Assembly: GCA_012798695.1 (NCBI GenBank)
Contig: JAAZMR010000060.1
Coordinates: forward strand, 1-33,148
Length of the DNA: 33,148 bases
From: Bacillota bacterium
GTDB lineage: Bacteria > Bacillota > Limnochordia > DTU087
Direction: 5' to 3'
The translations under genes and the position numbers were made by a program. Below, piece by piece: positions 11,364-29,039 of the stretch. How positions within the stretch are numbered: position 1 is the first letter of the stretch; each line of letters begins with the position of its first letter. The notes beneath the pieces were generated by a model. It saw nothing but the letters and a program-made list of their open reading frames with translations. It searched no databases and was not told where the DNA came from.

Positions 11364-11674
11364 TAACACGCAGGATATAATGGAACACGATGATGGAGAT
11401 TAGTAGCCTACCTATTCACTGCAGAGAGCCGGCGGTTGGTGCAAGCCGGTGGGAAGGCAGAGTGAATCCCCTCCGGAGTGGGTCCCAAGAATAGCCTCGC
11501 CCCAGTGCGGTGGCTATGGGAAGGGCCACGGGTAAGCCCGTTACAGCAGGAAAAGTGGGATCTTGACCTAACCTGGTTATTTACGGAATCGACTAGGGCT
11601 AATCTAGGTCCAATCTGGGTGGCAACGCGGGAGACCTCTCGTCCCTAAGCAAGGGCGAGGGGTTATTTATTTCT
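11364..11674 (+). promoter_or_regulatory. T-box riboswitch leader, seryl (serS)
   Basis: A leader of about 310 bases upstream of serS. Near its 5' end AGAGAG (about 11422) opens the Stem I region, followed by a GC-rich hairpin (GCCGG / CCGGT). The likely specifier is the UCC serine codon at 11467-11469 in the context GTGAA-UCC-CCUCCGGAG. The antiterminator T-box sequence TGGGTGGCAACGCGG is at 11616-11630; its UGGN bulge pairs with the uncharged tRNA NCCA end. A terminator hairpin follows. In this class, uncharged tRNA-Ser binding favours antitermination and raises serS expression when serine charging is low. Confidence 0.92.
11634..11673 (+). terminator. Regulated terminator of the serS T-box
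   Basis: ACCTCTCGTCC (11634-11644) pairs with GGGCGAGGGGT (11653-11663), using G-U pairs, followed by the T-rich TATTTATTT. It overlaps the end of the antiterminator, as in other T-boxes. Confidence 0.85.
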
Positions 11675-20355: not shown

Positions 20356-20444
20356 GGAGGGGTGTCAGAGTGGACGATCGTGGCGGTCTTGAAAACCGCT
20401 GAGGTGATGAGCCTCCGTGGGTTCGAATCCCACCCCCTCCGCCA
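20356..20444 (+). tRNA. tRNA-Ser(UGA)
   Basis: An 89-base class II tRNA with a long variable arm and encoded CCA. GGAGGGG pairs with CCCCTCC, discriminator G73 is as expected for serine, and the anticodon loop CTTGAAA gives UGA. It has its own promoter and terminator. Confidence 0.96.
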
Positions 20445-20448
20445 GATC

Positions 20449-20482
20449 TAGACCATTTCCGAATCGGGAATGGTCTTTTTTG
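20449..20482 (+). terminator. Rho-independent terminator of tRNA-Ser(UGA)
   Basis: GACCATTTCC and GGGAATGGTC form a 10-bp stem (one G-U), followed by six T. Confidence 0.92.
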
Positions 20483-20507: not shown

Positions 20508-20536
20508 TTGACAGTAATAAAGATGAATGATAGAAT
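20508..20536 (+). promoter_or_regulatory. Strong sigma-A promoter of the hydrogenase gene cluster
   Basis: A perfect -35 TTGACA (20508-20513), an ideal 17-base spacer and TAGAAT (20531-20536). About 180 bases separate it from the first gene. The leader includes an AAAGGAG (about 20664) with no obvious start codon at the right distance. I see no other convincing promoter until hydA ends, so it may drive all ten genes. Confidence 0.85.
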
Positions 20537-20719
20537 TTAGGTAATTCGGAAGCAGCCTTCCGGCCTTGATTAAGCTGGTCAAGGTTGTTGTACATAGGTA
20601 TTGTACTACGCTACGTACCCCGGGTGCTGGCGATCTGAATTGAAGAATAACCGCTAGGTGAAAGGAGATAAGGCGATCCCTCTCTGAAGAAAGTGGAGAG
20701 TGTCCTCGCCGATTGGTTC

Positions 20720-21091
20720 ATGAAGATCAAGGACATTCTTACCATAATCGATGCTGAGCTAGTAACACAACCGTCACATATGGATCGCCAAGTATTATCC
20801 GTATGTGGTGCAGATCTTATGAGTGATGTCTTGGCTTTCACCAAAGCAAAGACACTCCTGCTGACCGGATTGACTTCGATTCAAGTGGTGCGAACTGCTG
20901 GGGTAGTAGATCTGGCAGGGATTGTATTTGTCAGAGGCAAGAGGCCTAGCCCTGAGGTCATTGACATGGCGAACGAAGAAGATTTGCCTCTGCTTGTTAC
21001 CAAACACCCTCTCTATGAGACTTGTGGAAAACTCTATCACTGCGGCCTTAAAGGTTGTTCAGAACTGGATCCGGGAGGGAGGTCCGGATAG
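20720..21091 (+). CDS. DRTGG-domain protein (first copy)
   Basis: A 123-aa DRTGG-like regulatory domain protein (the domain is named after a fold also found in phosphotransacetylase and CBS proteins). It aligns by eye with the second copy at 22978: GADLMSDVLAF versus GGYCSDLLSDVM, then a hydrophobic core, then DLAGIVFVRGKRPSPEVIDMANEEDLPLL versus the equivalent AxxGIxxxxGxxPExxTLExA segment. I prefer ATG 20720 because relatives start with (M)KIKDI/MQLAAIVEAL; GTG 20693 would add nine residues. No good ribosome site is seen at either start. Such genes often sit beside [FeFe] hydrogenase genes in Firmicutes; ligand unknown. Confidence 0.75.
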   Translation: MKIKDILTIIDAELVTQPSHMDRQVLSVCGADLMSDVLAFTKAKTLLLTGLTSIQVVRTAGVVDLAGIVFVRGKRPSPEVIDMANEEDLPLLVTKHPLYETCGKLYHCGLKGCSELDPGGRSG

Positions 21092-21543
21092 TGGCAGCCG
21101 ACGGAGACATGGGAGCACTGATGTCAGTCACATATGATGTTGTGGCCGGTGATTTCGTACGGGCTGGGGAAGCTGCCAGTAAAATAAAGCGGTTGTTACA
21201 ACAACTGGGTCTAGACCCAGGGATTATCCGCAGAGCTGCCATCGCTGCCTATGAAGCAGAGATGAATATAGTAATTCATTCCTATGGTGGCCGGGTGGCT
21301 GTCAATATTACTTCTGATACCATTGAAATGTTATGTGAAGATTGTGGACCAGGGATAGTAGATATTGAAAAAGCACTGCAGGAAGGATACTCCACTGCCA
21401 GTGAAGACGTCAGGGAGATGGGTTTCGGAGCGGGGATGGGTTTACCTAATATTCGCAGAAGTGCCGATGAGTTTCTCATTGAATCGGAAGCAGGCCAGGG
21501 TACGCGACTGCAGGTAAAAATCCTGCATAAAGCTGGTGAATAA
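21091..21543 (+). CDS. RsbW/SpoIIAB-like GHKL ATPase (anti-sigma or serine kinase type)
   Basis: A 150-aa stand-alone GHKL ATPase domain. The N-box is EAEMNIVIHSYGG, the G1 box EDCGPGI and the G2 region GFGAGMGLPNIRRSAD, with a C-terminal GQGTRLQVKI strand. This arrangement, without a receiver or dimerisation domain, matches RsbW/RsbT/SpoIIAB-like serine kinases that act on anti-sigma antagonists. GTG 21091 overlaps the DRTGG stop by one base and has GGGAGGGAGGT about 8 bases upstream; an upstream in-frame start at 21055 has none. It sits directly before the sensory hydrogenase gene, separated by an overlapping stop/start (ATAATGG), suggesting they work together. Confidence 0.82.
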   Translation: MAADGDMGALMSVTYDVVAGDFVRAGEAASKIKRLLQQLGLDPGIIRRAAIAAYEAEMNIVIHSYGGRVAVNITSDTIEMLCEDCGPGIVDIEKALQEGYSTASEDVREMGFGAGMGLPNIRRSADEFLIESEAGQGTRLQVKILHKAGE

Positions 21544-22955
21544 TGGTGCAACCGTATTTCCATTCAGTCACACTTGAAACGGATAACTGCAAAGGTTGTA
21601 CGATTTGTATTAAGCGCTGTCCCACCGAGGCTATTCGGGTACGTGGTGGGAAAGCTCGAATTCTGGAATTGCGGTGTATTGATTGCGGAGAATGTATCCG
21701 GATATGTCCTAACCATGCCAAACGAGCTATTGCCGATGAATTCTCGCTGTTGGATAAGTATGCTTATACAGTTGCGTTACCGGCACCATCTTTCTATGGT
21801 CAGTTCTCGGGTCAAGATGTTAGTATCAGCAAGATCCTGCAATCTCTCCTCACTTTGGGTTTTAATGCCGTTTACGAGGTGGCGGAGGCAGCTGAGCATG
21901 TGAGTCTGGCCACCCGTCGCTATATTGAAGAGAGTTCCAAGCGCCCGCTCATTTCTTCTTCTTGTCCAGCTATAGTTCGCCTTATTCAAGTACGCTTTCC
22001 AGACCTGATCGATCACCTCATACCCATCCAGGCCCCCGTAGATATTGCGGCCCGTTTTGCTAAGCAATCCATCATGCGTAAATACGGGCTCCGACGAGAA
22101 GATATCGGGGCCTTTTTTATTACTCCCTGCCCGGCTAAAGTTACCGCCATCAAACAGCCGATTGGTCTGCTTGATTCCTGGGTGGATGGTGCCATCCCAA
22201 TTGCAGAGGTTTACGCAAGGGTGCTGCGTACATTACCCTATCTAGAGGACACTCCCGAGCTGCGGCAAGCCAGTGCCGCCGGTATTCATTGGGGGCGGGC
22301 TGCCGGTGAAGAGGAGGCCATCATGGCCCCCCGGCATGTGTCAGTAGACGGTATTCACGCAGTTATCGATGTACTGGAAGAGATCGAGATCGGGAAATTC
22401 CATGACATTGATTTCATTGAGTGTCAAGCGTGCCGCGGGGGGTGTGTGGGTGGCCCCTTGACTGTGCAAAATGCTTTCCTCGCGCGAGTCAACATGGAAA
22501 ACCTGACCAGGGAGCTCCCCCGTGAGATTGACCCGGCAGTTGTGAAGGAAGTGGACAAGCGCTGGGCAACGAAATTCTATGAGCTAGAAATAGATATTGA
22601 GCCCCGTTCCATTCTTAAGCTGGATGATGATTTCTCCAAAGCTATTGAGAAGATGGAGCTGTTGGAGAAGACGGTGGAATCCCTGCCTGGATTGGACTGT
22701 GGCTCCTGTGGTTCACCCAGTTGCCAAGCACTGGCAGAGGACATTGTGCAGGGTTTGGCCTCTGAAGGAGATTGTGTATTCGTCTTGAGAGATGGTGTAC
22801 AGTCCCTGGCTGAGGAGCTTCTGGAGCTAGCCCAGAGGGTACCAGGTTCCATATCCCATCAAGGGGAAGCACAGGGAGAGGAGCCGGTGAAGGAATCCAT
22901 AGAAGCATCGGGAAAGAGCGAGCGGGGAGACGGCGGCAGCTTAGCCGCAGAGTAG
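21543..22955 (+). CDS. Sensory-type [FeFe] hydrogenase homologue with C-terminal FeS domain
   Basis: A 470-aa [FeFe] hydrogenase-like protein that is probably a sensor rather than a production enzyme. Two ferredoxin clusters (C16, C19, C22, C26; C45, C48, C51, C55) precede the H-cluster domain. Its motifs are degenerate: L1 SSSCPAIV with only C141, L2 TPCPAK with C196, and L3 ECQACRGGCVGG with C297 and C301. The four cysteines that would hold the [4Fe-4S] part of the H cluster remain, but the proton-relay cysteine of TSCCP is Ser and the GGGQ end is changed. A C-terminal CxxCxxxxCx16C Fes-type domain (C386, C389, C394, C411) is followed by a Glu/Ser-rich tail. Start ATG 21543 abuts the kinase gene. 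Confidence 0.85.
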   Translation: MVQPYFHSVTLETDNCKGCTICIKRCPTEAIRVRGGKARILELRCIDCGECIRICPNHAKRAIADEFSLLDKYAYTVALPAPSFYGQFSGQDVSISKILQSLLTLGFNAVYEVAEAAEHVSLATRRYIEESSKRPLISSSCPAIVRLIQVRFPDLIDHLIPIQAPVDIAARFAKQSIMRKYGLRREDIGAFFITPCPAKVTAIKQPIGLLDSWVDGAIPIAEVYARVLRTLPYLEDTPELRQASAAGIHWGRAAGEEEAIMAPRHVSVDGIHAVIDVLEEIEIGKFHDIDFIECQACRGGCVGGPLTVQNAFLARVNMENLTRELPREIDPAVVKEVDKRWATKFYELEIDIEPRSILKLDDDFSKAIEKMELLEKTVESLPGLDCGSCGSPSCQALAEDIVQGLASEGDCVFVLRDGVQSLAEELLELAQRVPGSISHQGEAQGEEPVKESIEASGKSERGDGGSLAAE

Positions 22956-22977
22956 AGTTATTGGGAGGGCGAAGGAA

Positions 22978-23328
22978 TTGCAGTTGGCAGCAATAGTTGA
23001 GGCATTATCTCTACCGTCTGGTCATGCGTCGGTGGCAGATATCGAGGTAGCGGGAGGTTACTGCTCTGATTTGTTAAGTGATGTCATGGGGAAGGCGGCA
23101 GCCAAATCGGTATGGGTAACCAACCAGATACATCCTAATGTGGTGGCGGTGGCTTCATTAATCGATGCAGCCGCGGTGATTATTGCTGGAGGCGTAGAAC
23201 CAGAGGCAGAGACATTAGAGAAAGCCCAGGAGGTTGGTATCCCTCTGTTTGCCACCGACTTACCAGCCTTTGAAGTAGTAGGACGGTTATATGAGTTAGG
23301 CGTACGGGGTACTATACGGAGTGTCTAA
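22978..23328 (+). CDS. DRTGG-domain protein (second copy)
   Basis: A 116-aa DRTGG-domain protein homologous to the gene at 20720. It has the fuller family pattern: GGYCSDLLSDVMGKA, VWVTNQIHPNVVAVASL, IDAAAVIIAGGVEPE, TLEKAQEVGIPLFATDLPAFE and a terminal VGRLYELGV. The TTG start has GGGAGG about 9 bases upstream. It lies 22 bases after the sensory hydrogenase gene and overlaps the start of the PHP gene. Two copies flanking a sensory hydrogenase suggest a role in binding a small ligand or partner; this is inference. Confidence 0.85.
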   Translation: MQLAAIVEALSLPSGHASVADIEVAGGYCSDLLSDVMGKAAAKSVWVTNQIHPNVVAVASLIDAAAVIIAGGVEPEAETLEKAQEVGIPLFATDLPAFEVVGRLYELGVRGTIRSV

Positions 23329-24067
23329 GTGGATGTATATTGATCTCCATATTCACACTGGAGCATCACCTTGTGCCGCCAAGGAAATGTCCCCGTGGAA
23401 CATTGTGCGGATGTCCCAACTAGAGGGCCTTTCCTTAATTGCTATTACGGATCATAATACGGCTGCTAATGCTGGAGCGGTAATGCGGGTAGGGGACGAG
23501 TTAGGTCTTGTGATCTTACCGGGTATGGAGGTGCAGACGCGAGAGGAAGTACACCTACTAGCCATATTTCCTACCTTAGAAGCGGTTGCAGCATTTGAGG
23601 AGTTTATCTGGGATCACCTTCCGGATATCCCTAATCGACCGGAATTCTTCGGTGAGCAGATTCTATATGATAGCCAAGATAGGCAAGTCGCATCGATCGA
23701 ACGCTTGCTACTGCAATCGGTGATGTTAGGAGTGGAGGAAGTAGGGGCGGCCATCACTGCCCATGCAGGCCTGACCATAGCCGCCCATATTAACCGCCGT
23801 TCATATAGTCTCATTGGCCAACTGGGATTTGTGCCTAGGGACCTTAAGCTAGATGCCATAGAGATCGATAGGTCCTTTTCCCACAAGAGATTCACTGACG
23901 AATATGTGAGTCTGCGCCACTATCCGGTATTGAGTAACTCTGATGCTCATCAGCTTACTGACATAGTAGAAAGTCATCAATCTGCGGTTCTGATCCAAGA
24001 ACCGAGTTTCTTAGCTCTAAGAGAACTCTTAGAATCCGGTGAGGGTCACCGGATTCGATTAAGGTGA
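23321..24067 (+). CDS. PHP-domain metal-dependent phosphoesterase
   Basis: A 248-aa PHP (polymerase and histidinol phosphatase) family protein, expected to be a Mn/Zn/Fe phosphoesterase. Metal-binding motifs are H10-x-H12 in DLHIHT, D44-H45 in AITDHNT, conserved later histidines (HAG, AAHIN) and the C-terminal SNSDAH (about 207-212). The frame begins GTG 23321, overlapping the preceding stop; ATG 23333 is an alternative closer to the usual family start. No polymerase is fused, so this is a stand-alone PHP phosphatase as found next to Firmicutes hydrogenase genes. It may remove a phosphate placed by one of the GHKL proteins, but substrate is unknown. Confidence 0.88.
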   Translation: MSKWMYIDLHIHTGASPCAAKEMSPWNIVRMSQLEGLSLIAITDHNTAANAGAVMRVGDELGLVILPGMEVQTREEVHLLAIFPTLEAVAAFEEFIWDHLPDIPNRPEFFGEQILYDSQDRQVASIERLLLQSVMLGVEEVGAAITAHAGLTIAAHINRRSYSLIGQLGFVPRDLKLDAIEIDRSFSHKRFTDEYVSLRHYPVLSNSDAHQLTDIVESHQSAVLIQEPSFLALRELLESGEGHRIRLR

Positions 24068-24071
24068 TAGG

Positions 24072-24641
24072 ATGCGGGAATTAGCGCTTCATATACTTGA
24101 TCTTGTGCAAAACTCCTTGCGGGCAGGGGCCCGGATGATAGAAGTAGAAATAGTGGAGGACGTGGACCTTGATTCCCTCGCCATCATCATTCGGGATGAT
24201 GGTTGTGGAATGGAGCAAGCCCTTGTCAAAAGAGTCCTCGATCCATTTACCACTACTCGAACTACCCGGAAAGTGGGACTGGGTCTTCCCCTTTTGCAGA
24301 TGGCGACAGAGCGATCGGCAGGGGAGTTTTCCATTGACTCCAAACCGGGTCAGGGTACAGTCGTGAAGGCCAGCTTTCAGCACAGCCATATAGACCGCAT
24401 GCCCTTAGGGGATGTGGGCGGCACCATGCTGACGGTGATTGTCAGTAACCCGACTGTAGATGTGGTATATCGGCACCGGGTGGGTAACCGGTTATGGGAG
24501 GTTGATACCCGTGTTATCAAGGCCGAAGTGGGGGAGGAGGCTCTGACGCTGCCGGTGGTTATTCAGTGGTTGAGGTCCTATCTAGAGCAAGGAAAAAGTT
24601 ATCTTTATGGAGGTGTGGTATCAGATGAAATCTCTGGATGA
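24072..24641 (+). CDS. GHKL ATPase (histidine-kinase-like), second of cluster
   Basis: A 189-aa protein with a stand-alone GHKL ATPase domain: N-box LALHILDLVQNSLRAGA, G1 box IIRDDGCGM, F-box LDPFTTTRTTRKVGLGL and a G2-like SKPGQGTVVKASF. An extra C-terminal region (about 105-189) has no domain I recognise. It lacks a phospho-acceptor histidine domain and sensory region, so it may act on another protein. Start ATG 24072 follows the PHP stop by four bases. The 3' end overlaps the start of the next gene. Homologues of this gene pair with the [2Fe-2S] and HydC genes in other Firmicutes clusters, consistent with redox-linked signalling. Confidence 0.82.
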   Translation: MRELALHILDLVQNSLRAGARMIEVEIVEDVDLDSLAIIIRDDGCGMEQALVKRVLDPFTTTRTTRKVGLGLPLLQMATERSAGEFSIDSKPGQGTVVKASFQHSHIDRMPLGDVGGTMLTVIVSNPTVDVVYRHRVGNRLWEVDTRVIKAEVGEEALTLPVVIQWLRSYLEQGKSYLYGGVVSDEISG

Positions 24642-24999
24642 ACTAAAGAAGTTACGAGAAAAGGCACAGGAGACTATTCGTCTGCGGGAACAGACCGAAG
24701 GCACCAAAGTCATTGTAGGCATGGGTACTTGCGGTATTGCTGCAGGAGCACGGGAGGTGATGTTGACTCTTATAGATGAGCTGCAAAAGAAGAATCTTTC
24801 TGATGTTGTTGTCACTCAGACCGGTTGCGCAGGATTGTGTGAAAAGGAACCATTGGTTGAGGTAATCCGGCCGGGTGAACCCAAGATCACCTATGGGTAT
24901 ATGACACCAGAGAAGGTCCGTTCAATGGTGACTAGCCATATTGTCAATGGCCAGGTAATCGGGGAATATGTGATAGCTAGGGAGGATACTGTGAGCTAG
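24625..24999 (+). CDS. Thioredoxin-like [2Fe-2S] ferredoxin-type protein
   Basis: A 124-aa thioredoxin-fold protein related to the [2Fe-2S] ferredoxin/24-kDa domain. A helical N terminus (MKSLDELKKLREKAQETI) precedes the fold, with VGMGTCGIAAGAR and TQTGCAGLCEKEPLVEV. Only three cysteines are visible (C36, C68, C72), whereas the usual cluster needs four, so a cluster cannot be assumed. ATG 24625 is preferred over ATG 24607 because GGAGGT lies 10 bases upstream and relatives begin MKSL. It resembles the N-terminal part of HydB encoded two genes on. It probably works with the HydABC hydrogenase as an accessory electron carrier or assembly partner. Confidence 0.8.
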   Translation: MKSLDELKKLREKAQETIRLREQTEGTKVIVGMGTCGIAAGAREVMLTLIDELQKKNLSDVVVTQTGCAGLCEKEPLVEVIRPGEPKITYGYMTPEKVRSMVTSHIVNGQVIGEYVIAREDTVS

Positions 25000-25024: not shown

Positions 25025-25510
25025 GTGGCTATTCCGAAAGAACAGCTGGAATCTGTGCAGGAACGCATCTCAATGATCGTTTCTAAGTATGAAGCGAAGG
25101 AAGATTGTCTCCTTCAAATACTACATGATGTACAAGCAGATAACAATTCCCTTTCTGAACCAGAATTGATCCAGGTGGCCCGGGCTATGGATATTCCACT
25201 CAGCCGGGTATACGGTATTGCTACGTTCTATTCTATGTACTCAGTTCGCTCCCGGGGTAAATATGTTATCCGCATTTGTGAAAGTGCCCCCTGCCACATA
25301 ACTGGGGCACAGGCGGTTATTCGGGCATTTGAGCAAGCTTTAGGCATAGCAATGGGAGAAACGACGAAAGACCGGAAATTCACACTGGAATACACTAGTT
25401 GTCTAGGAGTATGCGGAGTCGCCCCTGCTGTAATGATCAATGAGCAGGTATATGGCAACCTTACGCCGGCTAAAGTGAAAGAGGTGCTGGCGGCATACGA
25501 TGAAGACTAG
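25025..25510 (+). CDS. hydC: NADH-dependent [FeFe] hydrogenase subunit C (NuoE-like)
   Basis: A 161-aa NuoE/HydC-type thioredoxin-like [2Fe-2S] subunit. A helical N-terminal domain (about 1-75, with SRVYGIATFYSMYS) precedes the cluster domain, where four cysteines are visible: C85 and C90 (CESAPCH) and C126 and C130 (CLGVCG). It would carry electrons between HydB and HydA. The GTG start has AAAGGAGG 8 bases upstream. It lies 25 bases after the [2Fe-2S] protein and 67 before HydB, in the usual HydC-HydB-HydA order. Confidence 0.92.
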   Translation: MAIPKEQLESVQERISMIVSKYEAKEDCLLQILHDVQADNNSLSEPELIQVARAMDIPLSRVYGIATFYSMYSVRSRGKYVIRICESAPCHITGAQAVIRAFEQALGIAMGETTKDRKFTLEYTSCLGVCGVAPAVMINEQVYGNLTPAKVKEVLAAYDED

Positions 25511-25532: not shown

Positions 25533-25577
25533 ATACAGATGTATGAGCTGAAGCAAAGCATAAAGGAGGGGAAACGG

Positions 25578-27209
25578 TTGGAGTTCTTTCGGTCACATGT
25601 ACTGGTCTGTTCCGGTGTCAATTGCACCTTTAAAGGTTCTCGATCAGTGAGAACTGCTCTGGTAGACGAAATCCGGGCTCAGGGATTAGAGCAGGAGATA
25701 AAAGTGGTTGAGACTGGATGTTTCGGCCTTTGTGAAGAAGGACCGGTAATGGTGGTCTATCCCGAGGCTGTTCATTACTGTCGAGTATCACCGGAAGACG
25801 TCAAGGAGATTGTGGAAGAGCATCTCCGTAAAGGTAGGGTAGTTAACCGGCTCTTGTATAGAGGAGATCTCTCGCCCAAAGCTGTGCAAACCTGGCAGCA
25901 GATTGATTTCTACAGTCGGCAGAAGAGAGTCGTTTTGAGGAATTGCGGACTGATCGATCCTGATAATATAGATGAATATATTGCTCGGGAGGGTTACGAG
26001 GCTCTGGGAAGAGTCCTGCGGAATCTGGAACCGGCAGATGTCATCAAGACTATCAAGGATTCTCGTCTGAGGGGTCGAGGTGGAGCGGGATTTCCTACAG
26101 GATTGAAATGGGACTTTACCGCTAGCGCCACAGGTGACCAAAAATACCTTATCTGCAATGCTGACGAAGGAGAGCCGGGCACATTCAAGGATCGGTTGAT
26201 TCTTGAGGGTGATCCCCATTCGGTGATTGAGGGGATGGCTATTGCCGCTTATGCTATTGGAGCCTCCAAGGGATATATTTACTTCCGAGGAGAGTATCAT
26301 CTCTCCATAGATCGCTTGACCCATGCCCTGAAACAGGCTAGAGAATATGGGCTTTTGGGAAACAATATCTTTGGTACTGGATTCGACTTTGATATAGAGA
26401 TCAAAATTGGGGCCGGTGCTTATGTGTGTGGTGAAGAGACAGCACTGATCAACTCCATAGAAGGCAAGCGGGGGGACCCCCGGTATAAACCACCATACCC
26501 AGCATCTATCGGGTTGTGGGGTAAGCCTACTTGTGTAAATAATGTGGAGACACTGGCCAACGTGCCTGCCATTATTCTACATGGTGCCGACTGGTTTCGG
26601 AGTATCGGCACAGAGAAATGCCCTGGTACTAAGGTCTTTACCTTGACTGGGAATATTACTAATGCGGGGCTTATTGAGGTCCCTATGGGGATAACGCTGC
26701 GAGAAGTCATTTATGACATCGGTGGTGGTATACCTAATGGACGGCAGTTCAAGATGGCTCAGACGGGGGGGACTTCTGGGGGTTGTCTGCCAGAGGCACT
26801 GCTTGATGTGCCCATGGATATTGATTCTCTTGCTGCCGCCGGGTCTGCATTGGGCTCCGGTGCCTTGATGATTATGGATGATACACACTGTATCATCGAT
26901 GTAGTCAAGTGTTTCTTGCAGTTTTTCCGACATGAATCCTGTGGCCAGTGCACACCATGTCGTGAGGGAACACAGCGCCTCTATGAACTGGTCGATAAGA
27001 TTTCCCGTATGGAGGCGACAAAGCAAGATGTGGAACTGATCAGGCGCTTAGCCAGAACTATGGATGATGCTTCTTTGTGTGCCTTAGGGCAGACAGCTCC
27101 ATTCCCGGTATTGACCACTATGCGATTTTTCCCCGAGGAATATGAGGCCCATATTGACAAGGGTGTCTGCCCAGCCGGGATCTGTGATGCAGTCAGCCAA
27201 ACTGCTTAG
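25578..27209 (+). CDS. hydB: NADH-dependent [FeFe] hydrogenase subunit B (NuoF-like), without C-terminal ferredoxin domain
   Basis: A 543-aa diaphorase subunit that oxidises NADH via FMN. An N-terminal thioredoxin-like [2Fe-2S] domain (C11, C16, C48, C52) precedes the NuoF core: GRGGAGFPTGLKW for NADH/FMN, CNADEGEPGTFKDR and GAGAYVCGEETALINSIEG. A [4Fe-4S] site follows (C455, C458, C461 in SCGQCTPCREG, plus C501). The protein ends shortly afterwards at CPAGICDAVSQTA, without the 2x[4Fe-4S] C-terminal domain seen in many bifurcating HydB proteins. TTG 25578 is chosen because AAAGGAGG lies about 8 bases upstream; ATG 25539 would add 13 residues. HydA begins 13 bases after the stop. Confidence 0.93.
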   Translation: MEFFRSHVLVCSGVNCTFKGSRSVRTALVDEIRAQGLEQEIKVVETGCFGLCEEGPVMVVYPEAVHYCRVSPEDVKEIVEEHLRKGRVVNRLLYRGDLSPKAVQTWQQIDFYSRQKRVVLRNCGLIDPDNIDEYIAREGYEALGRVLRNLEPADVIKTIKDSRLRGRGGAGFPTGLKWDFTASATGDQKYLICNADEGEPGTFKDRLILEGDPHSVIEGMAIAAYAIGASKGYIYFRGEYHLSIDRLTHALKQAREYGLLGNNIFGTGFDFDIEIKIGAGAYVCGEETALINSIEGKRGDPRYKPPYPASIGLWGKPTCVNNVETLANVPAIILHGADWFRSIGTEKCPGTKVFTLTGNITNAGLIEVPMGITLREVIYDIGGGIPNGRQFKMAQTGGTSGGCLPEALLDVPMDIDSLAAAGSALGSGALMIMDDTHCIIDVVKCFLQFFRHESCGQCTPCREGTQRLYELVDKISRMEATKQDVELIRRLARTMDDASLCALGQTAPFPVLTTMRFFPEEYEAHIDKGVCPAGICDAVSQTA

Positions 27210-27222
27210 AGGGGGGAACAAA

Positions 27223-28995
27223 ATGGCCACTGTAAATCTGACGATAGATGGACAGACGGTTGAGGTGCCGACAGGTTCGACCATTTTAGAGGCAGCACAG
27301 GTGCTGGGTATCGATATCCCCACCCTCTGCTACCACCCTGATCAGAGCATTAAGGCTGTCTGCCGAGTATGTGTAGTCGAGGTAGAAGGACAGCGGGTGC
27401 TGCAGCCTGCTTGCGCGTATCCCGTATCAGAAGGTATGCAGGTAAGAACCAATACCGCCAGGGTCCGAGAAGCGCGCAAAACTATAGTAGAGCTCATGCT
27501 AGCTCACCATCCACAGGACTGTCTACAGTGTGAGCGCAATCTGAACTGTGAATTGCAGTCTTTGGCACACCGGTTAGGTGTACGGGAAATAGCATTTCCC
27601 CATGTGGATCGGTCTCTACCTTTAGACGAGTTATCACCTTCGGTAATTCGAGATCCAAATAAATGCATCAATTGTCGTCGCTGTGTCGCTGTTTGCCATG
27701 AGATTCAGGGTGTGGGCATGCTTGACTCAATCAACCGGGGCTTTGATACAGTAGTAAGTGCTCCCTTCTGGCGGAGCCTGATCGAGCTGAGCTGTGTAAA
27801 CTGCGGACAATGTGCTTTAGTATGCCCGGTGGGAGCCATCGCGGAGAAGGATGATACTGAGCCTGTCTGGGCGGCCCTGGCCGATCCAGCTAAGCATGTA
27901 GTAGTTCAGACTGCTCCTGCTATCCGAGTTTCCATTGGTGAAGAGTTGGGGTTGCCTCCTGGCAGTAGGGTCACCAAACGGCTGACGACTGCTTTGAGAC
28001 GCTTGGGATTTGATCGAGTCTTTGATACGGATTTTTCAGCGGACTTGACTATCCTAGAAGAGGGCAGTGAGCTCCTGGAACGGTTATCAACTGGCGGGAC
28101 CCTACCCATGATTACTTCCTGTAGTCCTGGGTGGATCAAGTTTATCGAACACTACTATCCCGATCTATTGGGACATCTTTCTACCTGCAAATCTCCTCAG
28201 CAGATGTTTGGTGCCTTAACGAAAACCTACTATGCAGAGAAGGCAGGTATCGATCCCAAAGATATTGTGATGGTATCGATCATGCCCTGTACAGCCAAGA
28301 AATTCGAGGCCGGCCGTCCAGAGATGACCGATAGCGGCTATGCTGATGTGGATGTCGTGTTGACTACGCGAGAGTTGGGCCGCATGTTTCGAGAAGCTGG
28401 GATCGACTTAAGGGATCTCCCTGAGGAAGAATATGATGCACCACTAGGCATTTCTACCGGAGCTGGAGCCATTTTTGCCGCCACCGGTGGTGTCATGGAA
28501 GCTGCACTGCGTACCGTCTACGAACTAGTTACCGGCACAGAATTGGCCGACCTAGATTTCGAAGATGTGCGTGGCCTAGAAGGAATCAAGTCAGCTACAG
28601 TGGAGTTGCCTTTGCAGGAGGCGGCTGTCACACAAGATGGCGATGTAGCTAATTCAAAGACATTAGAGGTGAAGGTAGCTGTTGCCCATTCCCTCAAACA
28701 CGCCCGGGCTTTACTTGAAAAAATCAGATCTAAAGAGGCTGATTTTCACTTCTTAGAGGTTATGTGCTGTCCTGGTGGTTGTATTGGAGGAGGCGGTCAG
28801 CCCATACCGACGACCAACGCAGAGCGCGAGGAAAGGATTAGGGCTATATACGAAGAGGATGCTCACATGCCTCTGCGTAAGTCTCATGAAAACCCGGCAG
28901 TGCAGACTCTGTACGATGAATTCCTGGGCAAGCCGCTCGGCGAGAAATCCCATGAGCTCTTGCACACACACTACCAGCCTCGAGAGAAATTCTAG
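27223..28995 (+). CDS. hydA: NADH-dependent [FeFe] hydrogenase, catalytic subunit A
   Basis: A 590-aa group A [FeFe] hydrogenase, the H2-forming or H2-oxidising subunit of HydABC. An N-terminal [2Fe-2S] domain has C36, C47, C50, C64; a His-ligated [4Fe-4S] site has H96, C100, C103, C109; two ferredoxin [4Fe-4S] sites have C148, C151, C154, C158 and C191, C194, C197, C201. The H-cluster motifs are L1 TSCSPGW (298-304), L2 MPCTAKKFE (C356) and L3 EVMCCPGGCIGGGGQ (C516, C520). The maturase genes hydEFG are not in this window. ATG 27223 follows a GGGGGG-rich site 13 bases after hydB; a longer frame from 27142 lies inside hydB. C-terminal about 60 residues form a small-subunit-like tail. Confidence 0.97.
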   Translation: MATVNLTIDGQTVEVPTGSTILEAAQVLGIDIPTLCYHPDQSIKAVCRVCVVEVEGQRVLQPACAYPVSEGMQVRTNTARVREARKTIVELMLAHHPQDCLQCERNLNCELQSLAHRLGVREIAFPHVDRSLPLDELSPSVIRDPNKCINCRRCVAVCHEIQGVGMLDSINRGFDTVVSAPFWRSLIELSCVNCGQCALVCPVGAIAEKDDTEPVWAALADPAKHVVVQTAPAIRVSIGEELGLPPGSRVTKRLTTALRRLGFDRVFDTDFSADLTILEEGSELLERLSTGGTLPMITSCSPGWIKFIEHYYPDLLGHLSTCKSPQQMFGALTKTYYAEKAGIDPKDIVMVSIMPCTAKKFEAGRPEMTDSGYADVDVVLTTRELGRMFREAGIDLRDLPEEEYDAPLGISTGAGAIFAATGGVMEAALRTVYELVTGTELADLDFEDVRGLEGIKSATVELPLQEAAVTQDGDVANSKTLEVKVAVAHSLKHARALLEKIRSKEADFHFLEVMCCPGGCIGGGGQPIPTTNAEREERIRAIYEEDAHMPLRKSHENPAVQTLYDEFLGKPLGEKSHELLHTHYQPREKF

Positions 28996-29013: not shown

Positions 29014-29039
29014 ACCCCCACTCTCTTGTGGGGGTTTTT
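29014..29039 (+). terminator. Rho-independent terminator of the hydrogenase operon
   Basis: ACCCCCAC and GTGGGGGT form an 8-bp stem with a 6-base loop, followed by TTTTT. It lies 19 bases after hydA. The forward frame that continues over this point into sleB is not coding until ATG 29241. Confidence 0.93.

Follow-up and report, generated by a model that had tools for sequence, protein, structure and literature searches.

Partner switching of the SpoIIAB/RsbW/RsbT type uses an anti-sigma kinase, a STAS antagonist and a PP2C phosphatase. Here we describe a cassette of six genes that can be compared with such systems. It lies in a stretch of 33,148 nucleotides (referred to below as the window) from a Bacillota bacterium (Limnochordia; DTU087), namely GCA_012798695.1, contig JAAZMR010000060.1, positions 1-33,148, forward strand. 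The cassette encodes two DRTGG proteins (D1 and D2), two GHKL ATPases (K1 and K2), a sensory-type [FeFe] hydrogenase (HydS) and a PHP phosphoesterase (PHP), and it runs into the genes for a HydABC hydrogenase.

A sensory role has already been proposed for group D HydS. Hydrogenases of this group are termed sensory because of their location near kinases and bifurcating hydrogenases (PMC3561251; see also PMC3608648), and tables in PMC3561251 put HydS immediately before HydABC in C. thermocellum and Caldicellulosiruptor. One of them, TamHydS from Thermoanaerobacter mathranii (group D/M2e), has been characterised, and its signalling without a PAS domain was raised as an open question (PMC8163306). 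HydS belongs to the same subclass, is likewise upstream of HydABC and has the same C-terminal Cx2Cx4Cx16C motif, and one neighbour of TamHydS is a histidine-kinase-like ATPase. The other neighbour named in that paper is, unlike here, an AraC-family regulator, and the paper describes no DRTGG protein, PHP protein, fusions or CBS variants. In the one Thermoanaerobacterium locus that we examined (L044), the genes flanking HydS encode a GHKL ATPase and a DRTGG protein in which a DNA-binding domain is lacking, and the AraC annotation therefore deserves a check.

In the A. woodii hyd operon, HydE is not found in the active enzyme and possibly has a role in assembly or signalling (PMC3315566). K2 is its counterpart, both in its place in the operon and in its similarity to the ATP domain of histidine kinases, whereas the sensor half found here (D1, K1, HydS and PHP) has no equivalent in that operon as described. 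The group C sensory [FeFe] hydrogenases (C1-C3 in HydDB) are also tied to kinases and phosphatases, but they bear PAS, histidine kinase or MCP domains (PMC5037454), while HydS bears none of these and is paired with separate GHKL, DRTGG and PHP proteins. The cassette is ancient and widely conserved across phyla, and we found no description of a DRTGG/PHP/CBS cassette in the open-access literature searched, where DRTGG and hydrogenase are mentioned together in a single paper, once each. Its features in the window are:

20508..20536 (+), promoter-like TTGACA-17-TAGAAT with a TG extension before the second hexamer (11/12 consensus; consensus match only)
20693..21091 (+), D1, DRTGG protein standing alone (Pfam DRTGG, 7e-8)
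21055..21543 (+), K1, SpoIIAB/RsbW-like GHKL ATPase (Pfam HATPase_c_2, 2e-10)
21543..22955 (+), HydS, group D (M2e-type) [FeFe] hydrogenase (Pfam Fe_hyd_lg_C, 6e-31, with Fer4 and a C-terminal FeS domain)
22978..23328 (+), D2, second DRTGG protein (Pfam DRTGG, 2e-5, just under the Pfam cut-off)
23321..24067 (+), PHP phosphoesterase (Pfam PHP, 1e-4, below the Pfam cut-off)
24072..24641 (+), K2, GHKL ATPase that has a C-terminal region of its own (Pfam HATPase_c, 1e-15)
24607..24999 (+), hydD-like 2Fe-2S ferredoxin-type subunit, which opens the enzyme block (NCBIfam fdxn_Clost, 3e-12, below cut-off)
25025..25510 (+), hydC, NuoE family (Pfam, 3e-50)
25539..27209 (+), hydB, NuoF family (Pfam and NCBIfam)
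27142..28995 (+), hydA, group A6-type catalytic [FeFe] hydrogenase (NCBIfam NF040763, 906 bits against a cut-off of 765)
29014..29035 (+), terminator-like hairpin closing the unit after hydA (consensus match only)
20356-20444, tRNA-Ser, upstream of the above
20450-20476, terminator of the tRNA-Ser

The promoter, the six reading frames and their tight coupling into hydABC, as claimed in an earlier note on this DNA, are all present on the plus strand, and the domain names given there are backed by Pfam and, for PHP, by its metal motif and fold. Ten co-directional genes, D1 to hydA, lie between the strong sigma-70-like promoter site at 20508 and the hairpin at 29014-29035. Overlaps are 37 nucleotides for D1/K1, 1 for K1/HydS, 8 for D2/PHP and 35 for K2/hydD, and the other gaps are small. 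The start of D1 is uncertain, since its homologues begin about 10 codons later, near 20723, and the true start of hydA is probably near 27223. A single transcription unit of about 8.5 kb, holding the six cassette genes and hydDCBA, is plausible because the next strong terminator-like site downstream comes only after hydA. The RNA between promoter and D1 has an unremarkable predicted fold (z -1.5) and no Rfam match. In the source genome D1 and D2 are the only DRTGG hits, while six proteins match Fe_hyd_lg_C.

Relatives of HydS were taken from 80 named genome contigs and from genomes sampled within the phylum, and their neighbourhoods were read with profiles made from the window genes. D1-K1-HydS-D2-PHP is contiguous and in this order in 51 of the 59 named loci with sufficient flank; counted singly among these 59, K1 adjoins HydS in 57, D1 in 55, PHP in 54 and D2 in 52. 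The named loci span Bacillota, Atribacterota, Spirochaetes, an Armatimonadetes metagenome-assembled genome and Syntrophorhabdales. Within 299 genomes of the phylum, K1 was found in 126, K2 in 125, HydS in 120 and PHP in 117; all four are present in 109 and none in 166, and K1 and HydS are discordant in only 8. The cassette is present in roughly 40% of the sampled genomes. Judged from this comparison, the grouping of the six genes is far beyond chance, because the order recurs across phyla and the members co-occur with few exceptions. That the neighbourhood might be confined to close relatives, which the earlier note had named as grounds for giving up its proposal, is excluded by the spread over several phyla, and its central claim, that the six genes belong together as a signalling module, is borne out by order, co-occurrence and the fusions described below.

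Of the 38 named loci with wide flanks, 27 have a HydA-type gene no more than 10.5 kb away. The genes fall into two blocks, D1-K1-HydS-D2-PHP and NuoE-K2-HydD-NuoF-HydA, which may be joined, apart or divergent (L047, L055, L096, L116). The window has the order K2-HydD-NuoE-NuoF-HydA, and K2-HydD-NuoE is also found in a relative from the same family (L118). A block of six genes upstream of HydABC therefore describes the window correctly, but elsewhere K2 is usually inside the hydrogenase block. An assignment of K2 to the sensor half alone was dropped, as K2 belongs to both halves. A6-type HydA is commoner than the cassette (212 of the 299 genomes), and the cassette is therefore no obligatory component of this enzyme.

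In some genomes the cassette is split or incomplete. In four (G126, G156, G182, G256), D1 and PHP, usually accompanied by D2 and K2, lie between folC and a region of the maf-radC-mreB type, while K1-HydS is on another contig. In one further genome (G037, L185:7164-10185), HydS, K1 and PHP have decayed to fragments, and D1, D2, K2 and HydABC are intact; to judge from these fragments, the sensor half has here been lost naturally.

HydS has two N-terminal 4Fe-4S motifs (C16/19/22/26 and C45/48/51/55), the cysteines C141, C196, C297 and C301, and a C-terminal motif C386-x2-C389-x4-C394-x16-C411. Its cluster cysteines are 100% conserved in 106 sequences. It had been called degenerate, and we have discarded the idea of a degenerate or inactive protein on the strength of these invariant cysteines. 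No PAS domain was hit in HydS, and its features are those of group D (M2e). The group A proton-path cysteine and active-site methionines are replaced: motifs L1 (SSSCPA), L2 (TPCPAK) and L3 (ECQACRGGC), read from the window HydS alone, are without methionine. The sequence features support HydS as a putative sensor of the published group D/M2e type. In motif L1, HydA (27142-28995) reads TSCSPGW, and the motif cysteines of HydA and HydS fall in different alignment columns.

K1 aligns with SpoIIAB across the ATP site (profile match to SpoIIAB, 3e-12), and its best NCBIfam match is spIIAB, below the cut-off of that family. Residues E67 and N71 of the N-box and D96-G98-G100 of the DxGxG motif are at 100%, and the whole set of ATP-site residues, including GFGAGMGLPN, is at 90-100%. 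This is a GHKL protein with the SpoIIAB/RsbW-type site. K2 has the motifs D10...N14, DxGxG, PF.TT and GLGLPL, with a lid of the GLGL type. It resembles the ATPases of histidine kinases and not SpoIIAB. It carries Asp at the position of the catalytic Glu of SpoIIAB-type kinases, which makes a kinase role less sure. Of the two GHKL serine kinases proposed, K1, with its site intact, is the better candidate and K2 the more doubtful one. The marks of a two-component system are absent: Pfam found no HisKA/DHp domain in K1 or K2 and no receiver domain in the six genes.

The structures of D1 and PHP were each predicted as single chains. The D1 model has a predicted local distance difference test (pLDDT) score of 92, and its nearest folds by Foldseek (2ioj at 5e-7, 3l31 and 1ko7) are AF1212, the CBS-DRTGG region of a pyrophosphatase and HPr kinase/phosphatase; the Pfam match and the fold agree on DRTGG. 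D1 has an invariant D41-L-M-S44 and T58, to which D31-L-L-S34 and T48 correspond in D2. Asp41, Ser44 and Thr58 (in the numbering of the window D1) are at 98-100% in 41 D1 and 40 D2 sequences, whereas 30 other DRTGG domains, identified with Pfam in this phylum and nearly all part of longer proteins, show mainly Ala at the first position, no preference at the second and Val/Leu at the third. The contrast is slightly conservative, as one of the 30 (L275, a 165-residue frame adjoining HydS in G049) probably belongs to the module as a D1. The D-x-x-S motif is kept in cassettes without HydS, without PHP or with D2 only; two rows read CDVLS and SDFLS. Ser44 is at a predicted helix start in the D1 model. 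This module-specific serine could serve as phosphate acceptor, for which it is the best candidate. Profile matches of D1 and D2 to solved structures of designed beta-propellers were set aside as a composition artefact from a short repeated stretch.

All metal-site residues of PHP are kept (H10, H12, D44, H45, E70, E75, H78, H156, E181, D208 and H210), and the motifs that hold them (DxHxH, DH, E, E..H, H and SDAH) are at 97-100% in 89 sequences. The model has a pLDDT of 96.5, with EndoQ, TM0559, BAD_1165 and 2yb1 as nearest folds. The weak Pfam call is therefore accepted, because the complete metal motif and the fold confirm it.

Gene fusions suggest how the proteins are wired. D1 and K1 are fused in six loci (L038, L039, L123, L126, L128, L130) and PHP and K2 in four (L186-L189). 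Single loci have K1-HydS (L225), HydS with a D2 relative (L125) and K2-HydD (L241). K1 is also fused to CBS domains, with two repeats in L176, L177, L178, L229 and L234 and one Pfam-found repeat in L124. From these fusions we infer two chains of contacts, D1-K1-HydS-D2 and PHP-K2-HydD. D2 and K2 occur together without D1, K1, HydS or PHP in L230-L232, and the cassette genes of L227 are D1-K1-D2-K2 only. This suggests a core of two DRTGG-GHKL pairs, D1-K1 and D2-K2. Overall, comparative genomics supports the wiring well.

Both ends of the cassette, sensor and partner enzyme, are exchangeable. In three genomes (G117, G150, G090) there is no match to group D HydS and K1 bears a CBS pair; G117 has two such HydS-less CBS-K1 genes at separate loci (L176 and L229:8159-12662), one of them upstream of rnfC. 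The neighbouring enzyme is HydABC in most loci. In L186, L192, L193 and L230 it is NuoE/NuoF with a formate-dehydrogenase-type molybdopterin oxidoreductase, and in L229 and L234 it is Rnf (RnfC by Pfam, with RnfD in L234). Because HydS-less CBS-K1 versions exist and the cassette adjoins Rnf or formate dehydrogenase, its range, as read from gene content, is broader than H2 sensing. A module for sensing H2 or redox state, as first suggested, is consistent with the group D HydS in the cassette, but specificity for hydrogen does not hold. The formate-dehydrogenase-type reading frame is split inside the molybdopterin domain (L192:13206-15887, L193:12689-15370, L230:10650-11732 and L186-L189). It breaks off at profile position 81 and resumes near 96, as an in-frame TGA codon for selenocysteine would lead one to expect.

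Our preferred reading, which is tentative and in which we place rather less than even confidence, is of a modular redox/H2 cassette, with phosphorylation by K1 gated by HydS, its reversal by PHP and relay by K2 to an electron-transfer enzyme. HydS would bind H2, or equilibrate with reduced ferredoxin through its iron-sulfur clusters; it would contact K1 and D2 directly, and its redox state would alter the activity of K1. K1, as a SpoIIAB-like kinase, would phosphorylate the DRTGG serine, that is Ser44 of D1 and perhaps Ser34 of D2, and PHP would strip the phosphate from the DRTGG protein. K2, bound to PHP/D2 and to HydD, would relay the state to the bifurcating hydrogenase, whose place formate dehydrogenase or Rnf would take in other genomes, and enzyme activity or assembly would thereby track H2 or redox state. 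With CBS in place of HydS, the same cassette would read another signal, probably adenine nucleotides.

The likeness to partner switching lies in K1: it comes from the same ATPase family, its site is intact, and a small alpha/beta protein with an invariant serine at a helix start is paired with it. The differences are a DRTGG protein (like the N-domain of HPr kinase) instead of STAS, PHP instead of PP2C, two GHKL proteins, a metallo-sensor and no sigma factor. No STAS-type gene was found among the six genes or recurrent neighbours, the phosphoesterase of the cassette is PHP and not of the SpoIIE/RsbU type, and no sigma factor was found around the module or among recurrent neighbours. The cassette is therefore likened to partner switching and not counted as a member, because the defining STAS and PP2C features are missing. 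It is possible, though doubtful, that it represents a new class of signalling, in which DRTGG is a STAS-like phospho-partner of a GHKL kinase, PHP has the role of PP2C, sensor and client are interchangeable, and electron bifurcation is directly controlled by H2, redox state or adenylates.

Membership of the cassette, the fusion links, the intact active sites, the module-specific serine and the exchange of sensor and client are established by sequence comparison; what we infer is the phosphorylation and its direction, the role of PHP in undoing it, and an output at the level of the enzyme. Several points weigh against the scheme. The invariant Asp, Ser and Thr could form a ligand site or helix cap instead, and K2 may act as an ATPase or switch rather than as a kinase. 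Fusions other than D1-K1, PHP-K2 and CBS-K1 are each seen in one locus, and a fusion need not imply contact in unfused relatives. The Fisher p-values for co-occurrence (1e-60 and below) overstate independence and are descriptive only, because the genomes compared are related, although the discordant cases are still informative. The nearest solved folds of PHP act on nucleotides or DNA, not phosphoproteins. Finally, some gene neighbours point to a transcriptional or two-component output in some lineages.

These neighbours are the basis of the first alternative, which we regard as unlikely: that the output is transcription, with Rex or a two-component regulator, modulated by the cassette, setting hyd, rnf or fdh expression and no direct action on the enzymes. 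The recurrent neighbours are rex (in a subset), valS and folC/mur-type genes. In 13 loci of several families rex immediately precedes the first DRTGG gene (D1, or D2 in L232), with which it shares a strand, and in seven it overlaps that gene by 4 nucleotides. In L181:4933-12830 (G126), K1-HydS is beside CheW, an OmpR-type response regulator, a 904-residue GAF/PAS histidine kinase and a HydS-MCP fusion, and deletion of a different, PAS-type sensory hydrogenase (hfsB) alters the expression of adhE and correlates with that of rex (PMC5707799). Yet a response regulator adjoins K1-HydS only in loci of the L181/L105 type, and most loci, including the window, are without an adjacent regulator. No seventh gene or transcription factor common to all loci was found among the recurrent neighbours, Rex operator sites in the window are not above chance level, and K2 can be fused to the enzyme subunit HydD. 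The statement that no transcription factor is encoded is correct for the window and does not extend to the loci with rex. The L181 cluster holds two kinds of sensory hydrogenase.

A small-nucleotide system, in which DRTGG or CBS binds a nucleotide that PHP degrades, while the GHKL proteins spend ATP on conformational switching and not on protein phosphorylation, is rather improbable. It would suit the nucleotide and nucleic-acid phosphoesterases that PHP most resembles (2yb1 has AMP bound), the replacement of HydS by CBS, and the CBS-pyrophosphatases (3l31, 3l2b), where CBS and DRTGG act together in a nucleotide-regulated region. In the cassette, however, CBS is fused to GHKL and DRTGG stands alone, with the extra D-x-x-S...T motif; K1 has a full SpoIIAB-type site; and no nucleotide-making enzyme recurs in the neighbourhoods.

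It is more doubtful still that the cassette serves assembly or quality control of iron-sulfur and H-cluster enzymes, in which HydS would be the scaffold and the GHKL proteins would be chaperone ATPases. The assembly role considered for HydE (PMC3315566) and the K2-HydD fusion would fit, but the HydS-less CBS cassettes adjoin Rnf, an enzyme without an H-cluster, and many genomes with an A6 hydrogenase have no cassette (212 vs about 120 of 299). Mere co-transcription without functional interaction, to which lost or split members such as the separate K1-HydS of G126, G156, G182 and G256 might point, is very improbable, since co-occurrence persists in the split genomes and fusions join the members.

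If the phosphorylation scheme is true, energy-conserving electron bifurcation would be under direct control by H2, redox state or adenylates, and it would show how cells apportion electron flow between H2, formate and the ion gradient of Rnf, a question relevant to biohydrogen, ethanol and acetogenesis. Group D hydrogenases have already been purified and studied, and the cassette bears on the mode of signalling of these proteins, which have neither a PAS nor a kinase domain. The question is directly testable, because the fusions and the invariant serine name likely partners and a likely residue.

Two other loci of the source genome have [FeFe] hydrogenase relatives. One (L119:8957-10279, contig C13) encodes a 440-residue protein with no cassette genes recognised nearby, and the other (L120, C32:1-20000) has a second NuoE-NuoF-HydA block, in which HydA adjoins a rex gene, and another sensory-type hydrogenase, of 584 residues, nearby. 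Elsewhere in the window there is a T-box leader RNA at 11381-11649 (106 bits, which exceeds the gathering score).

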